Part shown: positions 11 through 14,173 of the stretch, one piece after another
Layout: each line of letters starts with the position of its first letter
How positions within the stretch are numbered: the first letter of the stretch is position 1
Assembly: GCA_030064795.1 (NCBI GenBank)
Contig: JASJEI010000207.1
Span: forward strand, 1-17,148
DNA from: Pleurocapsa sp. MO_226.B13
GTDB taxonomy: Bacteria; Cyanobacteriota; Cyanobacteriia; Cyanobacteriales; Xenococcaceae
Direction: 5' to 3'
DNA: 17,148 nucleotides
Notes under the pieces: model-generated
What the model was told of the DNA's origin: nothing
The model's input: only the letters and a program-made list of their open reading frames with translations
Database searches by the model: none
Translations under genes and position numbers: made by a program

Positions 11-2239
11 TTCGAGCTTAGTTATCGTAAAATTTACGCTAACCAACTCTCCTTTCTCCCACACATTTTTTCGCTCACCCCGCAGCTACATACTCATGCA
101 GTAATAATCAACGGAACTCAGAATAGCGAGGGTAAATGGTACAGCCTCAATAGCGACGAACTATTTAGAAATCAAAAGCTGTTAGGTCAGATTTATCAAA
201 ATGAGCTAGCAAACCGCGCTCAGAAGTTAGGGTATGAGATAGAACAACGTGGAAACGGGCAATTTGACTTAAAAGGATACACTCAGGAGCATCTAGACTA
301 TTATTCCAAACGCAGGAAGCAGATTGTAGAAGCAGCAGGCGAGGACGCATCCAGAAAGCAGATTGAACTGGCTGCACTCAAAACTCGAAAACCCAAAGGC
401 AAAGAAATACCCAGAGAAGAGTTACAGAAATACTGGAAAGCAGAAGCTAAAACTATTGGCATTCAACATCCCCAACCAAATAAGGTGTATCAAAAAAAGG
501 GTGTTGATAATTCAGATAAAGCAGTCGCCGAAGCCATCGCCCATGCTTCGGAAAGAAAGGTTAATTTCAAACTTGAGGAACTAGAAAAGTTTGCTCTAAA
601 TGAAATCGGTAACTATTCCTGGCGTGACTTACAAAAATCGATTAACCAAAATCAAAATCTACTCAAAGCCAAAGATAATCAATACACTACGCTGTCGGCT
701 CTAAACCGCGAACTGGATACCATCAGAATAGTTAACGAGGGTAAAGGATCATTCGATCGAGTTACCCAATCAAAAGCAGTACAAGAACAACTCAAAGATA
801 AAGAACTAACAGAAGGACAATATAACGCCGTCATGACTGCCAGCACCTCCTTTGATTCAATCATCGCCTGGCAGGGTAAAGCAGGAGCGGGTAAAACCTA
901 TGCTCTTAATGAATTCAAACAGATTGCTGAAAATAAAGGATACACGGTTAAGGGTTTTGCCCCTTCAGCAGAAGCAGCTAAAGTACTGGGTGAGGAATTG
1001 GGAATTAAATCTAATACTGTTGCCAGGAAACTTGTCAGTCAACCGAACGAAGAAAATAAGCAGCAAATTTGGATAGTTGATGAAGCTGGGTTGCTCAATG
1101 CCAAAGATACCCATTCACTACTTAAAAAAGCAGAAGAGGAAAGAGCGAGAATTTTATTGGTTGGGGACACGCGACAACTATCGGCAGTAGAAGCTGGCAA
1201 TCCCTTTAAATCCCTACAGAAAGCAGGAATAGAGACAGCCTATCTAAATCAATCCCTGAGACAAAAAACCGCAGATTTAAAAGCAGCAGTAAATAAAATC
1301 TCAGACGGGCAAATTAACGATGGCGTTAAAATTCTAGATGAAAACGGCAGAATCAAAGACTCTGGAGATAAAAGAGCCGAACAAATTGCCAACGATTATA
1401 TTAACCTAAGCCCAGAAGAAAGAAAAAAGACTTTAATACTAGCTGGCACTCACGCAGATAGAGAAGAAATCCTCAACGAGATTAGAACACGACTTAAGGA
1501 GGAAGGAAGTTTAGGGCAGCAGGAAACGGTTGGCACTAGACTAAAATCTAAAGACCTTACTAGAACACAAATGAAGTATACCCATCATTACCAGGTGGGC
1601 GATACAGTGATGCCTTTAAGAAATTACGGGCAGCTAGAAAAGGGTAAATTGTACACGGTTGCTGGTATAGAAAAAGATATCCTCACACTAAATAGAAGTG
1701 GAAATTTACACTACTTCAATCCATCACAGTTTGAAAAAGCAGTTTACGAGAGAAAAAGAATAGGCATACTCAAAGGCGATCGCCTGAAATGGACGCGAAA
1801 TGATACCAAACTCGGCAGAAGAAATGGTCAGGAATTTAATGTAATCGGGATCAATCAAAACTTTGCCACCATTCAGTACGATAACGGCAAACGAGAAAAC
1901 ATTAACTTGAATAAACCTCAGAACTTAGATCATGCCCTAGTCTCCACTACCTACAGCAGCCAGGGTAAAACGGCTAATAGAGTTTTAGTCTCTGCTACTT
2001 CAGATAAAACTTTAAGCAAGGAAAGTTTTTATGTTGCTGCCTCCCGCGCTAAGTTCAATCTAACTATTTATTCTCAAGACCAAGAAAAACTGCTAGCTAG
2101 AGCGCAGGAAAGCCAAGCTAAACTCAATCCGCTAGAGGTCTTAGAACAGCAGTCCAAGGCTGCAAAGAAAATCGATACTAACCTTCAGGGAATTTTCAAT
2201 AGCTACCGACAGAAAGCAGCCCAGTCAAGGTTAAGTTAA
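11..2239 (+). CDS. MobF (TrwC/TraI-like) relaxase-helicase, 5'-truncated and with replaced C-terminus
   Basis: MobF relaxases nick plasmid DNA at oriT and unwind the strand to be transferred. The frame is open from 11 to 2239 but has no ATG, GTG or TTG before GTG 485, and an in-frame TAG lies at 8-10. Relaxase homology starts at about 80 with the metal-binding end of motif III, PQLHTHAVIING (two His codons, 89-97), followed by WYSLNSDELF. The catalytic tyrosine region and the usual H-x3-SR before this motif are absent. The helicase half is complete: Walker A GKAGAGKT (875-898), Walker B IVDEAG (1073-1090), LVGDTRQLSAVE, STTYSSQGK and FYVAASRAK. The last seven codons (AAQSRLS) and the stop come from the IS4 element; the native tail lies at 4258-4370. 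About 742 codons remain, so relaxase activity is probably lost. A helicase-only product from GTG 485 is possible, although no Shine-Dalgarno precedes it. Confidence 0.82.
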   Translation, partial: FELSYRKIYANQLSFLPHIFSLTPQLHTHAVIINGTQNSEGKWYSLNSDELFRNQKLLGQIYQNELANRAQKLGYEIEQRGNGQFDLKGYTQEHLDYYSKRRKQIVEAAGEDASRKQIELAALKTRKPKGKEIPREELQKYWKAEAKTIGIQHPQPNKVYQKKGVDNSDKAVAEAIAHASERKVNFKLEELEKFALNEIGNYSWRDLQKSINQNQNLLKAKDNQYTTLSALNRELDTIRIVNEGKGSFDRVTQSKAVQEQLKDKELTEGQYNAVMTASTSFDSIIAWQGKAGAGKTYALNEFKQIAENKGYTVKGFAPSAEAAKVLGEELGIKSNTVARKLVSQPNEENKQQIWIVDEAGLLNAKDTHSLLKKAEEERARILLVGDTRQLSAVEAGNPFKSLQKAGIETAYLNQSLRQKTADLKAAVNKISDGQINDGVKILDENGRIKDSGDKRAEQIANDYINLSPEERKKTLILAGTHADREEILNEIRTRLKEEGSLGQQETVGTRLKSKDLTRTQMKYTHHYQVGDTVMPLRNYGQLEKGKLYTVAGIEKDILTLNRSGNLHYFNPSQFEKAVYERKRIGILKGDRLKWTRNDTKLGRRNGQEFNVIGINQNFATIQYDNGKRENINLNKPQNLDHALVSTTYSSQGKTANRVLVSATSDKTLSKESFYVAASRAKFNLTIYSQDQEKLLARAQESQAKLNPLEVLEQQSKAAKKIDTNLQGIFNSYRQKAAQSRLS
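2207..2231. repeat. Left target duplication and left terminal repeat of the IS4 element
   Basis: 2207-2216 is CGACAGAAAG, the target copy, still in the relaxase frame (Arg-Gln-Lys). 2217-2231 is CAGCCCAGTCAAGGT, the left terminal repeat, and is translated as the artificial end of the relaxase. Confidence 0.93.
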
Positions 2240-2395
2240 TAAAAGCTGAAAGCCATGTTCAGACTAGTTTGATGGACAATGAGAATTTAAAAGTGGGTTG
2301 TACAATTGTCTGAGTTTCTAACCTTAACCTCAAAAAGATAGAGTCAAGACGAAAAAAGTGCCATGTTTCGGGTTCAATCACGGGGATTTGAGTCC

Positions 2396-2619
2396 AAAAA
2401 TCTGAGCTTCTGTTTCCTCTCTTATTGGAAGCTATTATCATCAAGTTCAGAGTGACAGGAGTCTCCTCTATGGGGAAAAAGTTAGCGTATGTTTTCCGCT
2501 AACAAAACCGCTCTATCCTGCTCCCTTAAGAGCAGCCAAAAAATCTGACCGTTTTTTCCGCAGATTATTGAGAGAGTTATCATCAAGTTCAGAGTGATAA
2601 CAGGAGTTTCCCCGATGTG
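2396..2619 (+). repeat. Imperfect duplication (period about 145 bp) in the transposase leader
   Basis: 2396-2473 and about 2538-2619 are imperfect direct copies. Both contain TTATCATCAAGTTCAGAGTGA followed by an AGGAG ribosome-binding site and an ATG eight bases further on (AGGAG 2457-2461 with ATG 2470; AGGAG 2602-2606 with ATG 2615). The second copy is the transposase start. The first starts a mini-ORF. The duplication lies wholly inside the IS and may be part of its expression control or simply a local tandem duplication. Confidence 0.8.
2470..2502 (+). CDS. 10-codon mini-ORF upstream of the IS4 transposase
   Basis: ATG 2470 encodes MGKKLAYVFR and stops with TAA at 2500-2502. It has an AGGAG eight bases upstream, the same signal and spacing as the transposase gene 145 bp downstream. 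It could be a short leader peptide, or just the first copy of the duplicated start region, decaying. Nothing but the ribosome-binding site supports translation. Confidence 0.35.
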   Translation: MGKKLAYVFR

Positions 2620-3997
2620 GTTCAGTCCCATTTTTGAGCGCTTTGTAGAAAAGAGTCCAGTCACTGTCATGGTCAGAGCCATGATGGAAGTGATTCTGGC
2701 TCCTGAGAAGCTCGATGAGTTATTTGAGCAGACGGCGCAAACTGGGTATACTCGGGAACTGCTCTTCTCTACCTTGGTCATGATGATGACCCAAGTGGTA
2801 TGCAGTATCCGTCAAAGCATGGGGTCAGTCTATAAGGCGATGTCCGCTGAAATTGGTGTGTCCAAAACTGCCGTCTACGACAAGCTGAATCGCCTAGAAC
2901 CGAATGTCAGTAAAGCTTTAGTTAAATCCACTGCTATTGACCTGACCACTATTATTCATCAATTAGGGATGGAACTTCCAGTCCTGTTGCCAGGATATCG
3001 AGTTAAAATTCTCGATGGCAATGGTCTCGGAGCCACAGAGCATCGTCTTGAGGTGCTGCGAAACACCCGAGCTGGACCCCTACCTGGAAAATCCTTAGTT
3101 GTGCTTGACCCTCAACTGGGTTTAGCCAGCGATATTTTCCCTTGTGAGGATGGTTACACTCAAGAACGCGCGCTTTTATCAGAAGTCCAAAGGACAGTCG
3201 AAGCAGGAGACTTGTGGATTGGTGACCGCAATTTCTGCACGACCGGCTTCATCTTTGCCATTGAGTCCAAGCAAGCTTTTTTCCTGGTGCGCCAACATCA
3301 AAATCTCCCTTGGCAAAAGACCAGTGCCTTGGTTGAGTCGGGAAAGACTGAAGGGGGAGTGGTGTTTGAGCAGACAGGAGTGGTCAGTTACGAAGGTCAA
3401 GAGCTTCATTGTCGCCGAGTTGTGGTGCAATTAGACCGACCGACGCGGGATGGGGAGACCGAAATCGCCCTGTTGACCAATTTACCAAAAACCGATGCTC
3501 CTTCTGTCTTAGTAGCACAATTGTATCGAAAACGTTGGCGGGTGGAAACTTTATTTCAAGTAGCTACAGAGACTTTTCACTGTGAAATTAAGACTTTGGG
3601 CTATCCCCGAGCCGCGCTCTTTTCTTTTTGCATGGCGTTGGTTGCTTACAATCTATTTTCAACTCTCAAGGGAGTTCTGGCTAGTGTTCATGGTAGCGAC
3701 TGTCACGACAAACTGTCCTATTACTATCTGGGAGAAGAACTCGACGCCACTTATCAGGGCATGATGATTGCTCTCCCGCCAGAAGATTGGTCAGACTTGG
3801 GAACCATGAGCCAGTCTCAATTTTCTTCTCTGCTGCAAGACTGGGCGCAGTCAGTTAACCTACAAGCTTTTACTTCAACTAAGAGAAAACCCAAAAAGAA
3901 AAAGCCCAAGCCGCCTTATGACCCCCTTCATCCCCATGTCTCCACGGCTCGGCTACTGGCCGAGAAAAAGAAATCTCGGGCTTCGCCAAACAAATGA
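2615..3997 (+). CDS. IS4-family transposase
   Basis: DDE transposase that cuts and joins the ends of the surrounding 2031-bp element. I place the start at ATG 2615 (460 residues, beginning MWFSPIFERF) because AGGAG lies at 2602-2606 with an eight-base spacer; the frame also opens at GTG 2594 without such a signal. The catalytic residues are visible: the first Asp in KILDGNGLG (about D134), the second in WIGDRNF (about D204), and Glu in YRKRWRVETLFQ (about E311). The last has the Y-x2-R-x3-E spacing of the IS4 YREK motif, although the final Lys position is Thr. The C-terminus is very basic, with a Lys-rich stretch before the end. No frameshift or stop interrupts it, so it is probably functional. 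Confidence 0.93.
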   Translation: MWFSPIFERFVEKSPVTVMVRAMMEVILAPEKLDELFEQTAQTGYTRELLFSTLVMMMTQVVCSIRQSMGSVYKAMSAEIGVSKTAVYDKLNRLEPNVSKALVKSTAIDLTTIIHQLGMELPVLLPGYRVKILDGNGLGATEHRLEVLRNTRAGPLPGKSLVVLDPQLGLASDIFPCEDGYTQERALLSEVQRTVEAGDLWIGDRNFCTTGFIFAIESKQAFFLVRQHQNLPWQKTSALVESGKTEGGVVFEQTGVVSYEGQELHCRRVVVQLDRPTRDGETEIALLTNLPKTDAPSVLVAQLYRKRWRVETLFQVATETFHCEIKTLGYPRAALFSFCMALVAYNLFSTLKGVLASVHGSDCHDKLSYYYLGEELDATYQGMMIALPPEDWSDLGTMSQSQFSSLLQDWAQSVNLQAFTSTKRKPKKKKPKPPYDPLHPHVSTARLLAEKKKSRASPNK

Positions 3998-4084
3998 GTC
4001 AGCTGGAGGGGCATTCGCGAATTAATGTTTTCTTTATTTGACTGCCCCAAGAGAGCAGAAGAAACCTGCTGTCTAAAAATCAGG

Positions 4085-4111
4085 TAGTTCGCGACATCTG
4101 GCCGCGAACTA
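4085..4111. other. Perfect 9-bp hairpin in the IS4 right tail
   Basis: TAGTTCGCG (4085-4093) and CGCGAACTA (4103-4111) are perfect inverted copies with a nine-base loop. A related palindrome, ATTCGCGAAT, lies near 4015. Neither is followed by a T-run, so an intrinsic terminator is not supported. They may be subterminal transposase-binding sites or block read-through transcription. Confidence 0.6.
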
Positions 4112-4232
4112 ATTCTTGAAGATCAGTTCCCTTCTTGTATTTTTCTCAAGTTAAGAATAATAATTGATCAAGAGAAACAACTTATTGATAATACCTCTCT
4201 TCTATTGAGAATCAGTTCCTTGGGCTCATGCC

Positions 4233-4257
4233 ACCTTGACTGGGCTGCGACAGAAAG
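4233..4257. repeat. Right terminal repeat and right target duplication of the IS4 element
   Basis: 4233-4247 is ACCTTGACTGGGCTG, a perfect reverse complement of the left terminal repeat. 4248-4257 is the second CGACAGAAAG target copy. Identity between the two ends stops after 15 bases. Confidence 0.93.
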
Positions 4258-4456: not shown

Positions 4457-4780
4457 ATGAATATAAATTTATGCTTAATAACTGGTTTTTTAAAAGGTTT
4501 TCAAAGTAAACTTCTTGGCAAAACAAATTACTTTAAACGCACAATGTCAGGGACACGCTTTTATATCCAAAGCAAGCAATTGAAAGAACTAAATAGAGAA
4601 AGCCAAGTTTTGGGAATTGGATTAAACGAATTAATTTCTCTAAAACTAAAGCGAGAATTATTTGAAAGTCTACCCGATTCAAAACTTTCGCTCAGGCTAG
4701 AAAGATGTGAATTAATTCTCAGTCAACTAAGTGAGGATTTGAACTTGGTAAGAAACGCGACAAGTAATTGCCACAAATAA
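4457..4780 (+). CDS. Small putative ribbon-helix-helix DNA-binding protein
   Basis: Up to 107 residues. The core TRFYIQSKQLKELNRESQ followed by GIGLNELISLKLKRELFE looks like a short beta strand and two helices, the pattern of ribbon-helix-helix proteins. In other MobF plasmids such a protein (TrwA in R388) sits beside the relaxase and coupling protein and binds oriT as relaxosome accessory factor. Here it lies between the relaxase tail and the coupling ATPase, which fits that role. The start is uncertain: ATG 4457 gives an unusual hydrophobic-basic 29-residue leader, while ATG 4544 (MSGTRFYIQ) starts right at the predicted domain. Neither has a clear Shine-Dalgarno. Fold and role are inference; another MobC-like protein or repressor is possible. 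Confidence 0.6.
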   Translation: MNINLCLITGFLKGFQSKLLGKTNYFKRTMSGTRFYIQSKQLKELNRESQVLGIGLNELISLKLKRELFESLPDSKLSLRLERCELILSQLSEDLNLVRNATSNCHK

Positions 4781-4797
4781 ATATTAGAGAGAAGCCA

Positions 4798-5103
4798 ATG
4801 CAAATTAAAGATTCACAACAGAAAGATTCGCAGAAGATTAATATTAGTCAACAAGAAGCTCAAGCCTGGAAACAAGAGGCAATTGAACTCGGTCGCTCGC
4901 AGTCTCATCTCAAGAAAATCGACCAAACTATCAATAACGCTCCAAAAACTAATATAGGAAAAGAGCAAGGATTAACTTTGGATCGCAAAGATGCTTTAGC
5001 GATGAAAAAAGACCGCTCGGATTTTCAAGAGTTAAAACTAAATAACAATCAGAGTCAAAATCAGACCGAACAAATTAGTCAGTCTAAGGGAATCAGGAGG
5101 TAG
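4798..5103 (+). CDS. Hypothetical hydrophilic protein between relaxosome gene and coupling protein
   Basis: 101 residues from ATG 4798, which has GAGAG a few bases upstream. The frame also opens at TTG 4768 and would then overlap the previous gene. The product is rich in Gln, Lys, Asn and Ser, with no membrane segment and no motif I recognise. The central part (SQQEAQAWKQEAIELGRSQS) is probably helical. It ends three bases before the coupling-protein start, and the AGGAGG for that gene lies within its last codons, so the two are likely translated together. A role in the relaxosome is suggested only by position. Confidence 0.55.
   Translation: MQIKDSQQKDSQKINISQQEAQAWKQEAIELGRSQSHLKKIDQTINNAPKTNIGKEQGLTLDRKDALAMKKDRSDFQELKLNNNQSQNQTEQISQSKGIRR
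5095..5100 (+). promoter_or_regulatory. Strong ribosome-binding site of the coupling protein
   Basis: AGGAGG sits six bases before TTG 5107. It is a perfect anti-16S match and decides the TTG start of the coupling-protein gene. Confidence 0.85.
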
Positions 5104-5106
5104 CTA

Positions 5107-6921
5107 TTGAAATTTAGCGACTCTGGTTTCGGACAAGAAATTACCAAAAATAATTGGGAGATTAAATTCCAAAATTTCTACTGGCTATTGTTAGTTTCCT
5201 TTGTCTGTGGTCTAATAATCACTTTTGTTATCTTTGCTCTGCTTGCCCCTAAAGATTCTTTTGGGATTGTCCACTGGTATTTTGCCTCATGGCTATCTTG
5301 CAAAATTCCTCTGGCTTGCTCTGCTGAGGCTATTAATAATATGCGAGTCTTACAGCCTCAAATGGAGCGGTTGGGAAGTCTGCTAGGTTTCAGCAAATTT
5401 ATCTTGGCTATAAGCACTGCTGGCTCGTTCTTCGGACTGAGATATTATTTCAAGGAGCAAGGAAAACTTTTTTCCACCGAGAAATATTTAAGGGGAGCAA
5501 AGTTTCTCTTGCCCCCACAGTTACAAGCTGTAATCGATCTTCAAGATCAAGAAACAGAATTCGATTTAGAAATAGGAAGAGAACAGATTCGACTCCCTGA
5601 ATTTTTAACTTTCCGTCACATTAGCTTTGCGGGCGCATCGGGTACGGGAAAAACCCAGGCTATCAGCGGATTACTTACTCAGTTACAGGAGAAAAGAAAT
5701 CAAAAATGTTTGATTTTGGATCTCAACGGACAATATTATTCTAGATTCGGTCGAAAAGGCGATGTAATTCTCAGTCTTTACGATAAAAGAAGTAAAGCCT
5801 GGAATTTTTGGAGCGAGGACGCGCCCGCTGAATTCTTTGCCGAAGCTCTAATCGAAGCCGATGATAAGTTTTTTGCTCCCGCTGGTCGAGCATTGCTAAC
5901 AGATCTTCTCAGGATTAACTCTGATATTGATGGATTGTGGAAAGATTTAATTTCTCAACCAAAAGACTTGATTCAGCGATTGAAGGGCGGTATAAGCCCC
6001 GCGCTGATAGGAGCAGAGGAACAAGCAGCAGGGGTTCAGGCTACAGCTTTATTACAATTCAACTTTCTACAATATTTAAATCACTGGTGTAAAGATTCCG
6101 AACCATTTCAATTGACCCAATGGTGTAAAGATAGTCAAGAAAACTGGATTTTTCTGATTGTCAGAGATCGCGATTTGGCAGCTTGTAAATCCCTGCTCAG
6201 AACTTGGGTAGACCTTACCGTCTTGGGGGTTTTACAGCGAGAAGAAGATAAGAACTATCCCCACCTTTGGCTGATTGCCGATGAATTAGCAGGATTGGGC
6301 AAACTGCCGACTTTGGGTAAATTACTCTCGCAGGGTCGTAAATACAAAGCTACAGCTTTGGTGGGATATCAAACATCGGGACAGATTGAAGATATCTACG
6401 GTAAGGATGGGGCAAAAGAAATTTTACAAGGGTTGCAAAATAAATTTGTGTTTCGCTGCTCTGACTCCGATACTTCTAAAAAATCCTCTTTACAACTTGG
6501 AGAGCAGGAAATCGAAGAAATCGCCACAACAATTCAGTTTGGCAAATTAGCCAGCAACGACCGCAATTCTTTAAATAGAAGCATCAAAACCCGTCCCGTC
6601 GTAATGCCATCGGAAATACAGAATTTGCCAGATTTGCAAGCCTATATTAAATTCTGCGATTTAAATCCTTCTAAAATCCATTTTAACTATCAAAAATATC
6701 CACAGATTAATCCTCCAAATAATTCAGAAATTCCCGAAATAAAGCTTCAAATAGTAGATATAAATACTAAATCGAAACCAGAACCAGAATACGATTTCGA
6801 CCCGAATGAATGTTTTGATCCAGAAGATACAGAGACTGAGACAGAGACAGAAACTCAATACAATTTTGACCCCGAAGAAGACGATAACAAAAACGAAGAC
6901 AATAACTTTTTACAGTTTTGA
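5107..6921 (+). CDS. Type IV coupling protein (TrwB/TraD/VirD4-like ATPase)
   Basis: Hexameric inner-membrane ATPase that links the relaxase-DNA complex to the conjugative type IV secretion channel. Of 604 residues, two N-terminal membrane segments (about 23-46 and 92-112) are followed by the motor domain. This has Walker A GASGTGKT (176-183), Walker B LWLIADE (387-393) and the conserved stretch LGKLPTLGKLLSQGRKYKAT with the downstream Gln in GYQTSGQ (422). TTG 5107 is chosen as start because of the AGGAGG six bases upstream. The C-terminus from about 550 is strongly acidic, rich in Asp, Glu and Asn, and contains a TETETETETQ run encoded by short near-identical repeats. Acidic tails of coupling proteins are thought to contact relaxosome partners. 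The gene is intact although the relaxase beside it is broken. Confidence 0.9.
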   Translation: MKFSDSGFGQEITKNNWEIKFQNFYWLLLVSFVCGLIITFVIFALLAPKDSFGIVHWYFASWLSCKIPLACSAEAINNMRVLQPQMERLGSLLGFSKFILAISTAGSFFGLRYYFKEQGKLFSTEKYLRGAKFLLPPQLQAVIDLQDQETEFDLEIGREQIRLPEFLTFRHISFAGASGTGKTQAISGLLTQLQEKRNQKCLILDLNGQYYSRFGRKGDVILSLYDKRSKAWNFWSEDAPAEFFAEALIEADDKFFAPAGRALLTDLLRINSDIDGLWKDLISQPKDLIQRLKGGISPALIGAEEQAAGVQATALLQFNFLQYLNHWCKDSEPFQLTQWCKDSQENWIFLIVRDRDLAACKSLLRTWVDLTVLGVLQREEDKNYPHLWLIADELAGLGKLPTLGKLLSQGRKYKATALVGYQTSGQIEDIYGKDGAKEILQGLQNKFVFRCSDSDTSKKSSLQLGEQEIEEIATTIQFGKLASNDRNSLNRSIKTRPVVMPSEIQNLPDLQAYIKFCDLNPSKIHFNYQKYPQINPPNNSEIPEIKLQIVDINTKSKPEPEYDFDPNECFDPEDTETETETETQYNFDPEEDDNKNEDNNFLQF

Positions 6922-6928: not shown

Positions 6929-6939
6929 TAAGTTTTAAT

Positions 6940-7109
6940 CCCACATTCATCAGCCCCACAGATGAAGTACATCAGAAATCGGAATGGAAAAGCGATGCAA
7001 TAAAGAAAAAGAACCAGAATGAACTGGATCGAGTGAGAATAAGGAAAATTCCGAGGGAGTGCGATCGCTAAAATGCCTCATTCTCATGAAGCATCTCTTC
7101 ATGAGAATG
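6940..7109. repeat. Left long inverted repeat of the IS1634-like element
   Basis: The arm contains a chain of small palindromes: GATG/CATC near 6961-6973, ATCG/CGAT, CCAG/CTGG, and at its inner end a 13-bp stem CATTCTCATGAAG (7079-7091) with CTTCATGAGAATG (7097-7109) around a five-base loop. It also contains a HIP1 octamer at 7061-7068. It pairs with 8896-9065 on the opposite strand. Confidence 0.8.
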
Positions 7110-7202
7110 AATAAAAGAATAAATAATTAAGAATTCAGAATAAGGAGTCAAAAATCAAGATAATTGAAAAGAAGAACAAAAAAGATAAATTATTAAGTAA
7201 AA

Positions 7203-8801
7203 GTGCTAAGAGGGATAGAAGTCAAAACCATTAACCATTTAGGAATAATAGCAGGAATAATTGATGAAATTGACATCGTAAATATCGTTAACCGAGAATT
7301 AGGAATCGAAGAGCAAGAGATAGTTAATTCAGGAGAAATAGTTAAGGCAATTATTCTTAATGGATTGGGTTTTGTTTCTCAGCCATTATATTTATTCCCC
7401 AAGTTTTTTGAAGATAAAGCAACGGAACATCTTCTAGGAAGAGGAATTTTACCTGAGCATTTAAACGAGCATAAAATAGGGCGAGTAATGGATAAGCTCT
7501 ACAACTATGGACTATCAGAATTATTTCTCTTAATTGCCCTATCAGCCGTCAAAAAATATCAAATAAATCTCGATTTTTCTCACCTAGACTCTAGCTCTTT
7601 TTCGGTGCATGGTCAATACAATCAGATTTTATCGTCATCATTAGAATCCCAGGGAAAAGAGTTAGAGAGTGAACCAATACCGATTAAGATAACCTATGGA
7701 TATTCCAAAGATCGTAGACCAGATTTAAAACAATTTATTTTGAATTTAATCGTCACGGGAGATGGCAATATACCAATATTTCTCGAAGCAGCGTCGGGGA
7801 ATCAAAGCGATAAAAAAGTTTTTGGCGACATAGCTAAAAATTATCAAAAACAACTGAAATCAGAAACTACCATAGTGGGAGATAGTGCATTATACAGTAA
7901 AGATAACTTAGAATTACTGCAACAAATCAAATGGCTAACTAGAGTTCCTCTCTCAATAAAAGAAGCCAAAAATTTGATGAGTACAATTAAAGATTCAGAA
8001 TTTACAATTAGTGCAATATCTGGTTATAGTTGGGTAGAAAGAGAAAGTAATTATGGTGAAATACGCCAAAGATGGTTAGTTGTTAAAAGTGAGGCAAGAA
8101 CGAAATCAGATTTGGCTTCTCTAGAGAAGAAAATCGCCAAAGAATCGGAATCAATTCCGAAAAAATTAACTAAGCTCTCTCAGAAAACTTTTCAGAGCGA
8201 GACTGAAGCGGAATTAAATTTAAAACTAATTCAAGGTCAACTCAAATTCCATGTAATTAATGAGGTGAAAATCACAGAAAATCAGGATAAAACTTATCAA
8301 ATAACTGGAGTAATTAAAGCCCATAATGATGTCATTGAAGCTGATAAAAATCGTGCGGGCAAATTTATTATTGCCACTAATCGACTAGATCGTGAATCGT
8401 TTAGTTGCGATGAAATGCTCCTTAAATATAAAGAACAGCAACATGTAGAAAGAGGTTTTGCTTTCTTAAAAGACCCTCTATTTTTTGCCGATAGTGTATT
8501 CTTAAAATCCCCGCGCCGAATCTCGACAATGGCGATGCTCATGGGTTTATGTTTAATGGTCTATTCTTTGGGACAAAGAGAAGTTCGTCGCCAATTAAAT
8601 CAGGCTCAAACGGGAATTCCCAATCAGTTAGGAAAATTAACCGACCGCCCCACATTACGTTGGATATTTCAATGTTTTCAAGGGATTCATTTGTTAGTTC
8701 ATCAAGGAATTAAACAAGTGGTTAATTTAACAGAAGAACGTCAATTAACTCTCAAGTTTTTCTCCAAATCTAGTCAAGAATATTATTTTTTATCTGGATA
8801 G
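7203..8801 (+). CDS. IS1634-family (DUF4277-type) transposase
   Basis: 532 residues from GTG 7203. The N-terminus (HLGIIAGIIDEIDIVNIVN) matches the helical domain usual in this family. The DDE catalytic triad is visible as LDSSSFSVHG (D129), VGDSALYSKDN (D227) and EQQHVERGFAFLKDP (E416), with the long insertion between the second Asp and the Glu that is typical of these enzymes. The C-terminus carries the expected MAMLMGLCLMVYSLGQRE and TDRPTLRWIFQCF regions. The start is not certain because no convincing Shine-Dalgarno precedes the GTG. No stop or frameshift disrupts it, so it may still be active. Confidence 0.9.
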   Translation: MLRGIEVKTINHLGIIAGIIDEIDIVNIVNRELGIEEQEIVNSGEIVKAIILNGLGFVSQPLYLFPKFFEDKATEHLLGRGILPEHLNEHKIGRVMDKLYNYGLSELFLLIALSAVKKYQINLDFSHLDSSSFSVHGQYNQILSSSLESQGKELESEPIPIKITYGYSKDRRPDLKQFILNLIVTGDGNIPIFLEAASGNQSDKKVFGDIAKNYQKQLKSETTIVGDSALYSKDNLELLQQIKWLTRVPLSIKEAKNLMSTIKDSEFTISAISGYSWVERESNYGEIRQRWLVVKSEARTKSDLASLEKKIAKESESIPKKLTKLSQKTFQSETEAELNLKLIQGQLKFHVINEVKITENQDKTYQITGVIKAHNDVIEADKNRAGKFIIATNRLDRESFSCDEMLLKYKEQQHVERGFAFLKDPLFFADSVFLKSPRRISTMAMLMGLCLMVYSLGQREVRRQLNQAQTGIPNQLGKLTDRPTLRWIFQCFQGIHLLVHQGIKQVVNLTEERQLTLKFFSKSSQEYYFLSG

Positions 8802-8895
8802 TTATTGCCAGAAGTATTTGAGTTTCAATCAGTTTCAATTATTAATTCTATTTTCTCTAACTCATCAGCTATGGGCTAAATTTTGGCTGGTTATC

Positions 8896-9065
8896 CATTC
8901 TCATGAAGGAACTCTTCATGAGAATGAGGGGACAAAAACGATCGCCAATCCTGAATTTTGACTCATTCTCACTGCGTCGAGTTCATACTCGTTCTTTTTC
9001 TTTATTCCATCGCTTTTCAACCTCGATTTCAGATGTGCTTCATCCGTGGGGCTGCTGGATGTAGG
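8896..9065. repeat. Right long inverted repeat of the IS1634-like element
   Basis: Reverse complement of the left arm with scattered substitutions. The inner hairpin is repeated exactly (CATTCTCATGAAG 8896-8908, CTTCATGAGAATG 8914-8926), but its loop differs. Read on the minus strand, the CCAG/CTGG stem of the left arm appears as CGAG/CTCG, a paired change. The outer end abuts the ATG of the downstream gene. Confidence 0.8.
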
Positions 9066-9069
9066 TTTA

Positions 9070-9771
9070 ATGCAAATTTTTAATCAGTTACTCGGCAAAA
9101 TCATTTGGGCTGTTATAGTAATGATTTTATTAATTGGTGGATATATTTATCTAGTAAAAAATCTGGTTAAGCCTCCACAAATTGTTAATAACCAACCCAT
9201 ACCAACAACTCCACCAACACCAAACACTAATAATTCTAATCCTACAGTAGTTCAATCTGTTCCTGACAACAATGCAGATTTATCAGGCGATATCTTACCC
9301 GCAATTGCCCAACCCGATGGCGTTATTATTGAAGCTCCAGAAAGATTAGAACCAGGAGGCATTTTAAAAGTTTATACAAATAATAATGGTGCAGAATATC
9401 CAGACCCTCTTAATTATAGCCCTTCAAAGGTAATAAAAACTAATGGGCTGTCCATGGTAAATGTAGAGAAAGAATCGAGGAAATTTCAAGAGGCATCAGG
9501 CTATTTTTTAGTGCCAGAAACAGGCGATTATAATTTTGTAGTTGAGCTTCCTGAAAGCTACAAAGATGTAGAAATCGGCTCTTTAAATGTAAAGGTTGAT
9601 GGCATAGTTCTGTCGTCTCCAGATGGGGGTGAAATTTATCTCGAACAAGGATATCACCAGATTTCGTTATTAAATAGTTATTCGGTAAAAGGCGATTACC
9701 CTACAATTAATTGGGCAGCTACAGGAGAAGAAGTTAAACCTCTAAAAGTATTTCGCGAAGTAGAAGAATAA
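9070..9771 (+). CDS. Membrane-anchored protein with a possible PA14-like beta domain
   Basis: 233 residues from ATG 9070. The frame also extends to GTG 9046, but that codon lies inside the IS end. One membrane segment (about 10-29) is followed by a Pro/Asn/Thr-rich linker (35-67) and a beta-rich domain. Residues about 133-217 contain SGYFLVPETGDYNFVVELP, LNVKVDGIVL, GEIYLEQGYHQISLL and PTINWAATGEE. This order (tG-Y-F, V-D-G, L-x-G-x-H-x-I, then W) resembles PA14-type sugar-binding domains, but the match is by eye. The domain would face the periplasm. The gene heads a three-gene operon but has lost its GGAG to the IS; a weak TAGG supplied by the IS end is now its only nearby signal. Function unknown. 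Confidence 0.75.
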   Translation: MQIFNQLLGKIIWAVIVMILLIGGYIYLVKNLVKPPQIVNNQPIPTTPPTPNTNNSNPTVVQSVPDNNADLSGDILPAIAQPDGVIIEAPERLEPGGILKVYTNNNGAEYPDPLNYSPSKVIKTNGLSMVNVEKESRKFQEASGYFLVPETGDYNFVVELPESYKDVEIGSLNVKVDGIVLSSPDGGEIYLEQGYHQISLLNSYSVKGDYPTINWAATGEEVKPLKVFREVEE

Positions 9772-9800
9772 ATAGAAAAAATTACTACTGAGAATTTATT

Positions 9801-11099
9801 ATGGTTTTAAAAATTATTGGTTGGCTGATAGCTATCTGGCTAGTTTTTTGGTTGTTAGGAATTTTGTTACTTCTACTGCCAACTATCTTTTTCGCGTTCC
9901 TGTCGGCGATCGCACTACTTTGTATTTATTCTTTGCTGCCATCCAAATTCAGAATTAATGCTTTTGAGCAGTGGTTGGGAGTTCAGAGAAAACCTAAAAC
10001 TCAAAACACCAGTCCAGTTTCATCTACACCAATAAACGGTCTGGATGATAGCAGTAATAGCTCCACAAATAACAATAGAACAACGCCTGAAAGTGATTCC
10101 GAGCCAATTGAACCAATTTTGACTCCTCCCACAGTTCAGCCAAAACCCAAACCCGAACCAGAGTTAATGCAACCAGAACTGAGGTTCGATACTATCAAAT
10201 TCAACTTTGGTGGGAAACTACCAGATCGAGAAGAACTCAAAGCTAGCCTTAAGAAGAAGGTAATCGGTCAGGATACAGCGCTCGAGACTCTTGTAAGGGT
10301 TGTACTCGGTAAATTAGCCTCGAAAAACAATAAACCTTTGGTAGTTTTCCTCCCAGGCCCTACTGGCAGTGGTAAAACAGAATTGTCCAAAGCTTTGGCT
10401 GAAACTTTAAAAACTAAACTAACTCGCTTCGATATGGGTGAGTATGCCGAAAGCCACAAAGCCTCTAATCTCTTTGGTTCACCTAAAGGATATGTCGGAT
10501 CTACAGAAGGTGGGGCTTTGCCTAACGCCTTGAGAACCAGCAAAAAAACGTGCATTCTGTTATTTGATGAAGTTGAGAAAGCAAATCAAAGCTTGTGGAG
10601 ACAGCTTTTAGCTTTCTTTGATGAAGGACGGGTATCGGATACTATAGGACAAACTCTAGCTCCGAAAAACACAATTTGTCTGCTAACCAGCAATTTAGAA
10701 GCTGACAAGATTGCAGAAAATCCAGAGGCAGCCAAAGATATTATCAAACAGGGTCGTTATTTTCCGCCAGAGTTTTTAGGCAGAATTGATAAGGTTATTC
10801 CTCTTCTAAGACTCGATACTGCCGATACCGCAAGACTGACGGTAGTTTTAGCTAGAAGGGTTGCGGATAGATTTGATATTAACCTGATTATCGAGCAAGA
10901 AGCTCTTGAGGAATTAGTTAATGCTACTTTTGATGAGGGGCAAAAATACGGCGGAAGAGGAATTATGGAAAAAGTCGGCGACTTAATTGGAGACGATTTA
11001 TTAGATTTACAGGGTCAGCAGATTTATCAGGCAAAATTAATTGTTGAAAACGATAGATTAAAAGCAGTTCCGTTGATGGCGGAAGCGGAGGTTAAATAA
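9801..11099 (+). CDS. Membrane-anchored Clp/Hsp100 D2-type AAA+ ATPase
   Basis: 432 residues. A long hydrophobic stretch (5-46), probably two membrane segments, is followed by a Ser/Pro/Glu linker (65-125) and one AAA+ module of the ClpA/ClpB second-domain type. Visible are VIGQDTA (154-160), Walker A GPTGSGKT (186-193), RFDMGEY, the pore-loop GYVG (230-233, Tyr231), Walker B LLFDEVEK (D256, E257), sensor 1 TSN (N298), the Arg finger in EFLGRID (R328) and sensor 2 GGRG (R386). All key residues for ATP hydrolysis and substrate threading are present. Full Clp proteins have an N-domain and often two AAA+ rings; here these are replaced by a membrane anchor. I see no ClpP-docking loop, so it may remodel or extract proteins at the membrane rather than degrade them. 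It starts 29 bp after the previous gene and is followed two bases later by the next. Confidence 0.88.
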   Translation: MVLKIIGWLIAIWLVFWLLGILLLLLPTIFFAFLSAIALLCIYSLLPSKFRINAFEQWLGVQRKPKTQNTSPVSSTPINGLDDSSNSSTNNNRTTPESDSEPIEPILTPPTVQPKPKPEPELMQPELRFDTIKFNFGGKLPDREELKASLKKKVIGQDTALETLVRVVLGKLASKNNKPLVVFLPGPTGSGKTELSKALAETLKTKLTRFDMGEYAESHKASNLFGSPKGYVGSTEGGALPNALRTSKKTCILLFDEVEKANQSLWRQLLAFFDEGRVSDTIGQTLAPKNTICLLTSNLEADKIAENPEAAKDIIKQGRYFPPEFLGRIDKVIPLLRLDTADTARLTVVLARRVADRFDINLIIEQEALEELVNATFDEGQKYGGRGIMEKVGDLIGDDLLDLQGQQIYQAKLIVENDRLKAVPLMAEAEVK

Positions 11100-11101
11100 T
11101 T

Positions 11102-12118
11102 ATGAACAGCAACGAGATCAAAAATCGCGCTTCTTCTTTCTTTGAAAGGTTGAAAGTCTATGGAGCTTTCCTAGTAAGATATATCGTATTTATCTGTCGT
11201 AAATATCCATTGATAGCTGTTATTTTTCTGGTTTTCTATGCTTTTTTTCTGTATAGGTTTTTAAGTCCAAATTTCTCTATTAGTAGCAATAAGAATCTAC
11301 CGATACCACAACAACAAACACTCCCTAACTCTCAGACAGCTAATCCTAACACTAACAACTTACCAAGTACAACTCCATCTCCTGTTGTTCCCGCTCAAGT
11401 TACCGCAGTTCATTCGGGTTCTAAACTATCGATAAAGTGGACTGAATCAATTGAAGACCCTTTAATTTATTCGGAAAGAGGTCTAATTGATTCTAACTGT
11501 ATATCAAGAAGTTGTAGCATTAATTTATCCGAACCTATATCCCAAATTGAAGTTTATTGGAGACAAGGAGGGAAAAGATATGTCAAGAACTTCAAAGTCG
11601 ATAAAACAGTAACTAGCAATACTGCAAGCCAAGAGGAGCTAAGAGAACAGGCTGTAGCCAAACTCGAAGAAAAGCACCAACAGTTAAAGCAAAAAAGATT
11701 GTCAGCAGCCCAAGAAGTATTCGCTAAGGGCAAGGTTTTTGAGGGAACAATTTCTTATCGAGAAGAATCTCAACCAATTAAGATAGCAATAAGCGATCTG
11801 GTTGCAAATAGCTATATTGTTGAGATTTCTAACCCGGTAAAAGAAACTACTCAAATTTTTGAGGGAGAAATAACTGAAGTTTTCAAAGGTGAAAATTATC
11901 GATTCAATTTTCCTGAATACAGTCCCGAAAAAGCGTCGGCTTTTTTGTCTTTAAAATCGAGATCGCCACAAAGCGACTTACCTGACGACGCTTGGAGATT
12001 TTACAAGGAGGAAGTTATTTTGCTTCTTGATAGTACAGACTTAGGAGTTGATGGTGTGGCAGAATCAATTAATTATAACGGGATTTCTGGGTGGGATTAT
12101 AAAATTACTCTTAGGTAA
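11102..12118 (+). CDS. Membrane-anchored hypothetical protein, partner of the AAA+ ATPase
   Basis: 338 residues. A basic N-terminal cytoplasmic segment (1-34) is followed by one membrane helix (about 35-55), a Pro/Asn/Gln/Thr-rich linker (60-100), a small beta-rich region (about 97-165) with two cysteines five residues apart (C133, C138), a charged helix likely to form a coiled coil (about 175-206), and a C-terminal beta-rich domain. I do not recognise a family. The start follows the ATPase stop by two bases, and GGAGGT lies about ten bases upstream inside the ATPase's last codons, so the two are translationally coupled. It shares with the product at 9070 the plan of anchor, low-complexity linker and outer domain. 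The two cysteines fit a disulfide outside the cytoplasm. Confidence 0.75.
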   Translation: MNSNEIKNRASSFFERLKVYGAFLVRYIVFICRKYPLIAVIFLVFYAFFLYRFLSPNFSISSNKNLPIPQQQTLPNSQTANPNTNNLPSTTPSPVVPAQVTAVHSGSKLSIKWTESIEDPLIYSERGLIDSNCISRSCSINLSEPISQIEVYWRQGGKRYVKNFKVDKTVTSNTASQEELREQAVAKLEEKHQQLKQKRLSAAQEVFAKGKVFEGTISYREESQPIKIAISDLVANSYIVEISNPVKETTQIFEGEITEVFKGENYRFNFPEYSPEKASAFLSLKSRSPQSDLPDDAWRFYKEEVILLLDSTDLGVDGVAESINYNGISGWDYKITLR

Positions 12119-12138: not shown

Positions 12139-12630
12139 TTAGCTTTTACACCAAGCGATTGCTTTGTCCATTGATTTTTTTCGGTTTTCTATAATATTTT
12201 TTTCATGGTTAAATCTAGCTTCGATTTCTGGGGATTCAAAGCCATATATTTTTGAGTTTTGCACCCCCTCCATGATCTCGTTGTAGCTTGCTACAACATC
12301 TCGTTGCTCCCACTTCAAAGTCTGGCAATAAATCGGTTTAGGAATGATCTTTTCCGTCGATAAGTATAACTCTTGTATCAGAGAAAATACAAAAGGAATA
12401 AATAAAACGGAAAAACCAATAATTCCTAATAATATTGCCAACCAATCGTAGAGGGCAATTTGTTTTATTAATAAGACACCACTCGGAGCTTCTTGTTGAG
12501 AACAAAGACTAAGCCCCAGTGAACTCAAATCCTGTTTACTGTACAGAATTCCCTTTTCTTCATCAATATAAGTATCCTGTAAACTATCAGCTAAATGTCT
12601 ATTTTGTTCGGTGAGTTTATATTTTTTCAT
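12139..12630 (-). CDS. Small membrane protein of unknown function
   Basis: 163 residues from ATG 12630. The frame also opens at TTG 12639, directly after the upstream stop. A polar N-terminal region of about 50 residues is followed by a hydrophobic segment of one long or two short helices (about 52-90, core DWLAILLGIIGFSVLFIPFV) and a charged, probably helical C-terminus. No family is recognised. It is the last gene of a four-gene minus-strand operon and ends 20 bp from the stop of the + strand block, with no clear terminator between the two. Confidence 0.65.
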   Translation of the reverse strand: MKKYKLTEQNRHLADSLQDTYIDEEKGILYSKQDLSSLGLSLCSQQEAPSGVLLIKQIALYDWLAILLGIIGFSVLFIPFVFSLIQELYLSTEKIIPKPIYCQTLKWEQRDVVASYNEIMEGVQNSKIYGFESPEIEARFNHEKNIIENRKKSMDKAIAWCKS

Positions 12631-12639
12631 TATAAACAA

Positions 12640-13182
12640 TCAAATATTTAGAGCTTTTTGAATGGCAAGTTTTAGCTTTTGTTCCGAATCACGAGAACAT
12701 TTTTCTATGCAATCAAACGCTCCTAGCTGTTCGGCTCTTTCTTTGTAATCCCTGTGACTTACTAATGTACTATAAAAAATTACGGGAATTCTAAATTCTA
12801 GATCAAGCTCGTCCAAACGCTGAAAAATATTAAGACCGTATCCCATGTTCGTTTCACCTTTTTTTAGTTTACCCGCAAGCATTTCATGCCAACAAGATAC
12901 GAATAACTCACAGATAATTAAATCTGGAGGATCTACCTGTATCTGTGCTGAAGCTTCCGAAAAATTTCTAGCAAAGTAGAAATTGAGCAGATTGTTTTCA
13001 ACTTCTTCAGAAAAATAAAAATAAATAAAATCCTCGCGACTGCAAATATCGTACAGATCGCAATCGATTATTAAAATCTTGGCTGGATATTCTATAGACT
13101 TGAGTGGCTTTAAAGGTTTGTTCTGTTTATCTTCTGCTTTGAAGATTCCCAAAAAAGATTGAATTTTTTCAGCGATCGCCAT
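12640..13182 (-). CDS. Receiver-like (CheY-type) protein with Glu at the phosphoacceptor site
   Basis: 180 residues with a 33-residue N-terminal extension and one receiver-like domain. The pattern matches response regulators: KILIIDCD (D40, D42, acidic pocket), PDLIICEL (E92 where the phosphorylated Asp normally lies), IPVIFYST (S138/T139, switch) and GAFDCIEK (K161). The Glu in place of Asp would prevent ordinary phosphorylation and may mimic the active state. No output domain follows, so it probably works by protein contact. The start ATG overlaps the previous gene by 14 bp and has AGGA about nine bases upstream. A HIP1 octamer covers codons 2-4. Identification rests on motif order and spacing, and the partner is unknown. 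Confidence 0.7.
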   Translation of the reverse strand: MAIAEKIQSFLGIFKAEDKQNKPLKPLKSIEYPAKILIIDCDLYDICSREDFIYFYFSEEVENNLLNFYFARNFSEASAQIQVDPPDLIICELFVSCWHEMLAGKLKKGETNMGYGLNIFQRLDELDLEFRIPVIFYSTLVSHRDYKERAEQLGAFDCIEKCSRDSEQKLKLAIQKALNI

Positions 13183-13501
13183 AATTTTTGTTCCTCTCTC
13201 TAAGTTGTTCTGCTATAGCTAGTAAAATTTCTTCAAAAGTTTCCGAAGGCAGACTTTTAATCTTGTCCACAATCAGATCGGAAGTTTCTTTGTCTGTGGT
13301 CTGAAGCACGATCGAGTTCAAAATTAGATTTTTACTCCCATTACCGTTGCCGTTTAAAACCAGCGTAGCTCCAGTGTTCTGTTCAATTTCTTTGAAAAAT
13401 TCTTTAATGATAGCTTCTTTATCTTCTATATCCATTTCTTCAAGATTGCTACCATTGATACTGTTTTTTTCGCTTTCTTTAATTTTATTTTTTCTTACCA
13501 C
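13169..13501 (-). CDS. Hypothetical 110-residue protein
   Basis: Starts with GTG 13501, directly after the stop of the HTH gene, and overlaps the receiver-like gene by 14 bp. Such tight packing implies co-translation. The N-terminus is very charged (Lys, Glu, Asn). The middle has a short hydrophobic-glycine stretch, GATLVLNGNGNGSKNL, that may be a beta turn. The C-terminus SETFEEILLAIAEQLRER looks amphipathic-helical. There is no membrane segment and no family I recognise. Confidence 0.6.
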   Translation of the reverse strand: MVRKNKIKESEKNSINGSNLEEMDIEDKEAIIKEFFKEIEQNTGATLVLNGNGNGSKNLILNSIVLQTTDKETSDLIVDKIKSLPSETFEEILLAIAEQLRERNKNYGDR

Positions 13502-13837
13502 TTAGTTATCTATTATCCTATTCTGCCTTAGCTTATACGCGCTGCTTTCAAGCCGATCGGCAATATCTAATTCAAGAGCGCGATCGCTTGCTTGGGGCGA
13601 TTCGCCTTCTAACAATAGCAAATAGTACTGCCTTCTCAGTTTTTCAGGCAGAGCGTCCAAAAGCTTTTGATAATTTGAATTGTAGATATCCGCTCCTTTT
13701 CTGAATTTAGAAATATTTGCCTCAGAAATTCCGCTTCTTCTACTTATCTCTCTGGCAGTTACTCTGCCTAGCTTTAGGACTTGGAAGTAACAGCTTACAA
13801 TTTTGCTTTGCTTTGTCTTTTCTTTGTGAAGGCTCAT
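13502..13837 (-). CDS. HTH (XRE-like) transcriptional regulator
   Basis: 111 residues. The segment TAREISRRSGISEANISKFRKG (about 27-48) followed by YQKLLDALP is a helix-turn-helix of the XRE/Cro type. The C-terminal half is helical and probably dimerises. It is the first gene of the minus-strand operon. No Shine-Dalgarno precedes ATG 13837, and a perfect 20-bp inverted repeat begins three bases upstream, so the mRNA leader is either very short or structured. The position suggests it binds that repeat, controls its own operon and perhaps the divergent replication gene. This regulatory role is inferred from context. Confidence 0.78.
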   Translation of the reverse strand: MSLHKEKTKQSKIVSCYFQVLKLGRVTAREISRRSGISEANISKFRKGADIYNSNYQKLLDALPEKLRRQYYLLLLEGESPQASDRALELDIADRLESSAYKLRQNRIIDN

Positions 13838-14095: not shown

Positions 14096-14173
14096 GTGGA
14101 AGCTAAAAATTCACAGAGGCTTCTAATTGTGCTTATTTTCAGTAGCACCTCCAGCTTGGAAGGTGCAAAGTGA
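14096..14173 (+). CDS. Possible 25-codon leader peptide overlapping the replication-gene start
   Basis: GTG 14096 opens a frame of 25 codons (starting V-E-A-K-N-S, with a hydrophobic LLIVLIF centre) that ends at TGA 14171-14173. The stop overlaps the replication-gene start as GTGA. Ribosomes translating it would pass through and open the hairpin at 14145-14166. Only a weak GTAGAAG precedes the GTG. Leader peptides of this kind are known for IncFII and related replicons, but here it is a hypothesis. Confidence 0.3.
   Translation: MEAKNSQRLLIVLIFSSTSSLEGAK
14145..14166 (+). promoter_or_regulatory. Hairpin sequestering the replication-gene ribosome-binding site
   Basis: GCACCTCC (14145-14152) pairs with GGAAGGTGC (14158-14166) through six outer and two inner base pairs, with one bulged A and a five-base AGCTT loop. 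The 3' arm contains the GGAAGG Shine-Dalgarno (14158-14163), six bases before GTG 14170. In the folded state the site would be hidden from ribosomes. Confidence 0.6.

Follow-up and report, generated by a model that had tools for sequence, protein, structure and literature searches.

A membrane-tethered Clp-type ATPase with two anchored partners forms a recurring module beside MobF/TraD transfer genes of cyanobacteria

What might a Clp-type AAA+ ATPase be doing when it is tethered to the membrane, encoded between two other anchored proteins and set among genes of DNA transfer? The question is raised by contig JASJEI010000207.1 of Pleurocapsa sp. MO_226.B13, whose 17,148 nucleotides (the window hereafter) carry three adjacent genes, for P1, the ATPase and P3, referred to here as the trio. 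The evidence is computational throughout, namely sequence comparison, structure prediction and genome surveys. It establishes the trio as a real, recurring accessory module of cyanobacterial MobF/TraD elements and, as the original prediction had it, an undescribed one: no named system was matched, and in the open-licence literature we found no description of such a module, nor of a PA14 domain together with a conjugative relaxase. For its function we tentatively favour a part in a DNA-transfer operon.

The three genes stand together, in the same order, in all three loci where both flanks are visible (the window, L178 and L001); P3 follows the ATPase in four of four loci including the window, and P1 precedes it in the three with that side in view. 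In L178, from genome G531, the order is relaxase (981 amino acids), accessory gene, TraD, P1, ATPase and P3, the TraD and P1 frames overlapping by 8 nt, and the ATPase contains letter for letter the protein P0028 of Xenococcaceae cyanobacterium MO_188.B29. The order in L001/L184 (G001, Prochloraceae cyanobacterium MO_167.B51) is TraD, relaxase, four diverged copies of P1, ATPase, P3, a small accessory gene and ParA, with a 4-nt overlap between the relaxase and the first P1. The remaining locus, L180 of G578, shows the ATPase and then P3 at a contig end; the contig terminates inside the ATPase, whose N-terminus lies beyond it. Pfam confirmed a TrwC relaxase in both L001 and L178, and a test for a MOB module found a relaxase and a type IV coupling protein (T4CP) adjacent to the trio, so that linkage to transfer genes is well supported, if from few loci. 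Contigs of 4/14 P1 and 4/13 P3 relatives also equal ATPase-bearing contigs in length, as do none of 45 control lengths, a circumstantial match given that the values come from the longest contig of each cluster. Near TraD in three genomes there is, in addition, a second protein with a similar C-terminal domain, judged by eye (VNQEQVxIxLRDNGxEDGD-like; L178:3062-3622 on the minus strand, L192:4353-5288 and L193:5585-6127), with a hydrophobic N-terminal stretch in L178 and L193; it was not noticed in the window.

In the window the trio reading frames are all intact and on the plus strand, and the architecture first described for them (N-terminal anchor, low-complexity linker, C-terminal domain) was borne out for each. 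They are unlikely to be chance frames, for each has close relatives on other contigs, with best identities of 84% (ATPase), 82% (P1) and 74% (P3). The P1 start used in the family is ATG 9070, giving 233 amino acids; GTG 9046 falls inside insertion-sequence (IS) DNA. The ATPase stop codon, TAA at 11097-11099, is followed by the P3 start ATG at 11102 and preceded by GGAGG at 11087-11091, a spacing that makes translational coupling of the last two genes, earlier stated as a fact, plausible.

The ATPase has a single AAA+ domain (Pfam AAA_2, 7.8e-35), to which the NCBIfam ClpA/ClpB models align over their D2 (second-ring) part only, and it begins with hydrophobic segments at residues 8-26 and 28-46 followed by a P/S/T/N-rich linker. 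Walker A K192/T193, Walker B D256/E257, sensor-1 N298, the arginine finger R328 and sensor-2 R386 are kept in 36/36 aligned family members, and Y231 of the pore loop (KGYVG) in 35 of the 36. A ClpP-type tripeptide (IGL/IGF-type loop) between sensor 1 and the arginine finger is absent from all 71 relatives in which the stretch could be located (72 checked), and the alignment with ClpC leaves a 14-residue gap in the ATPase at this position. One complete D2-type ATPase, with neither N-domain, first ring nor visible ClpP loop, had been read from the window, and these results agree. The conserved pore tyrosine and arginine finger, together with the missing ClpP loop, argue for an unfolding or remodelling function and against partnership with a protease. 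A simple hydropathy scan finds one or two N-terminal hydrophobic segments in 69/74 relatives (P0001-P0074), the other five all being short pieces of 258-367 amino acids. Because a near-invariant Pro27 lies between the two segments and a near-invariant Arg51 after them, and ATP is in the cytosol, the sequence suggests a hairpin with both ends cytosolic.

With this ATPase the Clp family gains a branch that is tethered to the membrane and has a single ring. In a quick tree of AAA+ domains (63 chosen of 134 extracted, no bootstrap, a long-branch warning, group labels assigned in this analysis), the tethered family groups with its soluble, fused and multi-membrane relatives in one clade, which has a support of 100 in the Shimodaira-Hasegawa-like approximate likelihood ratio test (SH-aLRT) and a stem branch of 1.36, apart from 12 ClpB/ClpC-labelled sequences; on such a tree, with its long stem, the clade appears distinct from ClpB/ClpC. 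Its long soluble members measure 767-925 amino acids, and two of them are chromosomal, as their contigs measure 6.9 and 7.7 Mb. The ~890-residue proteins of L181, L182 and L183 bear the same AAA+ domain centrally and a CbbX-like end, as seen by eye; near that of L182 lies an Hsp70-like gene, named by reading its open frame. P0083, P0084, P0086 and P0087 have 5 or 6 predicted transmembrane (TM) segments and make up a supported tree group of their own.

In both partners an N-terminal anchor is followed by a low-complexity linker and by the beta-rich C-terminal part expected of them. The suspicion that one of them might be PA14-like is supported by the predicted structure of P1, whose C-terminal domain is modelled as a PA14 fold (predicted local distance difference test, pLDDT, about 90 over the domain) and matches PA14 and flocculin glycan-binding domains in structure comparison; the Pfam PA14 profile, at 13.7 bits, does not reach its cut-off of 24. 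P3 is predicted to combine an Ig-like domain with a calycin-type barrel, the closest folds to the modelled barrel being the GID4 substrate receptor and other calycin-type barrels, and its domain make-up varies among relatives. Across the trio the ATPase is the most conserved member and the partners vary. Profiles of P1 and P3 gave no significant match to PDB sequences. An IcmG/DotF match of P3 was dropped (17.5 bits against a cut-off of 200, confined to anchor and linker), and Zeta toxin and peroxynitrite isomerase matches in the profile scans lay below cut-off. Of the claim that the partner domains face outwards, the part concerning P3, a periplasmic domain, is well supported; P1 may lie on either side of the membrane, and its flanking charges, more positive after the anchor in 13/15 cases, point, if anything, away from the periplasm.

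Our surveys of the order and the phylum scored 4 to 6 ATPase candidates per genome (up to 3 for TraD), so that all counts are lower bounds, and the draws overlap. At 1e-60 the ATPase profile was found in at least 13 of 388 genomes of the order, three of the trio kind and ten with the long soluble kind, and a second order draw of 281 genomes returned the same three trio genomes. The phylum draw at 1e-70 gave at least 1/386; within the family of G531 the figure was 2/27 at 1e-100, and within that of G635 it was 0/50 at 1e-60. The trio-kind family is thus rare in species genomes (3/388 in the order). The TraD of the window was found at 1e-60 in at least three of the 388 genomes, at four places, two of the genomes having the trio ATPase as well; if the two were independent (3/388 each), at least two shared genomes would be expected with a chance of 1.2e-4. 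The two TraD places at which no trio is in view, L192 (5.7 kb) and L193 (9.4 kb), run out within the relaxase or shortly after it, and hence do not decide on the presence of a trio. Among the best 80 loci of a genome-contig scan with the ATPase alignment, L001, the one taken further, stood out by score at 56% identity, the others, mostly ClpB-like, having 34-44%. Some 70 clusters of the tethered ATPase are also represented on metagenome contigs, the longest of those listed measuring 30-82 kb. Viral scans gave loci at 32-38% identity for the ATPase and no match for P3 or P1, and none of 2153 matched PLSDB records covers 80% of the ATPase.

A link to coupling proteins or type IV secretion had been put forward as a check. 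TraD and the relaxase do adjoin the trio, but a link to a complete type IV secretion system (T4SS) was not confirmed: the trio contigs (19.6-20.8 kb, possibly incomplete) had no VirB4 match to the P-loop_TraG and TraC_F_IV profiles, which score weakly on the VirB4-like proteins found elsewhere, and the elements therefore look mobilizable rather than self-transmissible. P-loop_TraG occurs in two of three genomes, always off the trio contigs and with a single match above cut-off, and nowhere in G531; TraC_F_IV was found in 0/4 genomes. Contig C48 of G578 (L194) encodes a VirB4-like protein and an M23 peptidase alongside a MobF relaxase and a TrbI-like protein whose score is below cut-off, and every P-loop_TraG or TrbI match in G001 (L195, L196) falls short of the cut-off. 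There is accordingly a T4SS-like locus in one host (G578), weaker traces in a second (G001) and none found in the third (G531). The loci L194, L195 and L196 are divergent as T4SS go, their VirB4-like and TrbI-like proteins scoring weakly. Terminal repeats, as a sign of circularity, were absent from the window, G531:C149 and G578:C95. Mobilizable elements often bring their own relaxase and coupling protein (PMC11389934).

The other features of the window are collected with the trio in Table 1. Its relaxase, 67.6% identical to that of L178 over 638 columns, lacks the N-terminal part at the left edge and has its C-terminal tail cut by IS-A. The interval between TraD and P1 (6922-9069) is occupied by IS-B, so that the trio probably adjoined TraD before this insertion. 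Downstream of the trio, four small minus-strand genes (12139-13837) comprise one with a hydrophobic stretch (by eye), one receiver-domain-like (23.5 bits, below cut-off), one with no assignment and one helix-turn-helix-like (below cut-off). A long plus-strand open frame (14170-17148) leaves the window; it has no Pfam match at E<=0.1, aligns over 527 columns, at 26% identity, with a DUF3854/helicase-like protein encoded downstream of the L178 trio, and is possibly a replication protein.

Table 1. Features of the 17,148-nt window
Feature	Position (nt)	Strand	Remarks
MobF (TrwC/TraI-type) relaxase-helicase, incomplete	80..2215	+	TraI/TraA models below cut-offs; TraI helicase and AAA_30 domains; frame read from PQLHTH motif (nt 80)
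IS-A, DDE transposase	2216..4248	+	16-nt perfect terminal inverted repeats, same 8 bases either side; interrupts relaxase tail
Small accessory gene upstream of TraD	4544..4780	+	Relatives precede TraD in L178 (44%) and L192 (35%)
Small accessory gene	4768..5103	+	Relatives in L184 (40%), L193 (26%) and L178 (29%)
F-type TraD coupling protein (T4CP)	5107..6921	+	TrwB_AAD_bind 1.1e-75; TIGR02759 9.8e-68, below curated cut-off
IS-B, DUF4277/DDE transposase	6935..9070	+	114-nt imperfect terminal inverted repeats
P1	9070..9771	+	Anchor residues 11-29, Pro/Asn linker, predicted PA14-fold domain residues ~89-233
Membrane-tethered single-ring Clp D2-type AAA+ ATPase	9801..11099	+	Hydrophobic N-terminus residues 8-46, linker, D2 residues ~145-425
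P3	11102..12118	+	N-terminal helix and TM residues 37-55; predicted Ig-like domain 98-167 (Cys pair 133/138), helix 177-206, calycin-type beta barrel 209-338

The observed gene order and overlaps, the family and motifs of the ATPase and the predicted folds of its partners can be brought together in a mechanism to which we give slightly less than an even chance: the trio would belong to a DNA-transfer operon of cyanobacterial mobilizable elements, with the ATPase as an inner-membrane unfoldase preparing a protein, most likely the MobF relaxase, for export via TraD, and P1 and P3 as its anchored partners. The hydrophobic hairpin would tether the ATPase to the inner membrane, its single Clp-type ring in the cytosol beside TraD, a contact that we infer. 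A Clp ATPase that has one ring and an aromatic pore loop most likely works by threading polypeptides, and since the operon overlaps the coupling-protein or relaxase gene, the likeliest polypeptide is one of the transfer complex. The KGYVG pore loop could thus pull on the relaxase attached to the T-strand, unfolding it or stripping the relaxosome for entry into the export channel, a channel presumably provided in trans by a resident T4SS. P3, with its Ig-like domain and barrel, and probably P1, with its PA14 fold, would extend into the periplasm, where they would bring the complex up against the secretion channel and glycans of the wall or surface. The stricter claim, that the ATPase is a dedicated, operon-encoded unfoldase of conjugative relaxases, its tethered ring unfolding the relaxase-DNA conjugate at the coupling protein and the PA14 and barrel proteins forming an anchored, partly periplasmic half, we consider doubtful. 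In the donor the relaxase is a folded protein, which has to be unfolded if it is to pass the channel (PMC5826034), and PMC5826034 and PMC6362355 state that an ATP-driven unfoldase for the exported relaxase is unclear or unknown; the trio ATPase, Clp-type and encoded in an operon that overlaps relaxase or coupling-protein genes, gives this question a specific candidate.

Several points weigh against this transfer mechanism. The relaxase as substrate is a testable guess, and the P1 charges speak against a periplasmic P1 domain. G635 has TraD but no ATPase at E<=1e-60, on a TraD contig of only 5.7 kb; no TraD was found in G578, whose trio contig ends inside the ATPase. With its relaxase broken, the window copy may have lost the ability to transfer. 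Soluble members of the ATPase clade are encoded away from transfer loci, P1 and P3 had no match in PLSDB, and among 25 records listed, four Nostoc plasmid stretches whose MobF relaxases are related (about 46% identical) have no annotated trio in a gene table that is incomplete; such relaxases can evidently do without the trio, which is seemingly not general to them. The soluble proteins, found in at least 10 of the 388 genomes of the order and in one case near the Hsp70-like gene, would suit envelope quality-control or stress cargo lying in the transfer region by accident, but the frame overlaps with TraD and the relaxase, and the recurrence of these neighbours in two other elements, leave this a small probability.

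The trio could, with a probability that is modest and yet not negligible, be a mating-pair or surface module, in which glycans on the partner cell or its wall would be bound by P3 and by the adhesin-like PA14 protein P1, while the ATPase would serve to assemble, remodel or turn over these two anchored proteins. The flocculin-like fold predicted for P1, the four divergent P1 genes of L001, which could reflect a ligand that varies, and the varying make-up of P3 fit this; however, the P1 charges do not speak for export of its domain, no path by which it would reach the surface was identified, and a conserved ATPase with varying partners is explained equally well or better by a constant motor whose adaptors change. 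That relaxase, TraD and trio form a transfer apparatus needing no classical T4SS appears improbable: the trio contigs without VirB4, and the profiles that draw a blank in G531 (P-loop_TraG) or in all four genomes (TraC_F_IV), would be in keeping with it, but the contigs may be incomplete, with no terminal repeats in the three tested, the weak scores of VirB4-like proteins make a miss possible, VirB4-like and TrbI-like genes (mostly below cut-off) lie elsewhere in G578 and G001, and no outer-membrane pore was recognised among the trio. More improbable still is a role in defence or exclusion, with kinship to DolB or PDC-M37B, which are single Clp-type ATPases: these PADLOC models do match the AAA domain (6e-25 and 1.4e-26), but only this domain and at 86-92 bits, against 171 and 167 for ClpA/ClpB, and P1 and P3 have no PADLOC match at E<=0.01.

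Among known systems, the DolB (Dodola) profile reaches 86 bits over the AAA domain of the ATPase, with no cut-off given; a PADLOC scan of P1, P3 and two minus-strand proteins, in which DolA was not searched by name, gave no match. The likeness of P1 to PA14 domain proteins holds on its predicted model rather than on its sequence profile, and that of the P3 barrel to the GID4 substrate receptor is one of fold only. The same relaxase and T4CP families adjoin the trio as make up F-type TraD/MobF modules, and the F plasmid and R388 are not known to carry a Clp-type ATPase alongside their relaxase. MPF_C-type systems on cyanobacterial plasmids are treated in PMC8600333, in whose main text the terms ClpB and AAA are absent. 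With the D2 ring of the HSP100 proteins ClpB, ClpC and ClpA the trio ATPase has in common the Walker, sensor and arginine-finger residues and the aromatic pore loop; unlike HSP100, with two AAA+ rings and an N-domain, it has one ring, no N-domain and no ClpP loop, is membrane-tethered and falls in a clade apart. In build it is comparable to the eukaryotic torsins, TorsinA and TorsinB being single AAA+ ATPases with a membrane-associated N-terminus and single-pass partners, LAP1 and LULL1 (PMC5425593); the Pfam Torsin domain matches the ATPase at 28.2 bits (cut-off 27) over 64 residues. Whereas torsins are described in that source as having neither arginine finger nor aromatic pore loops, the trio ATPase has both, and its ring is expected in the cytosol.

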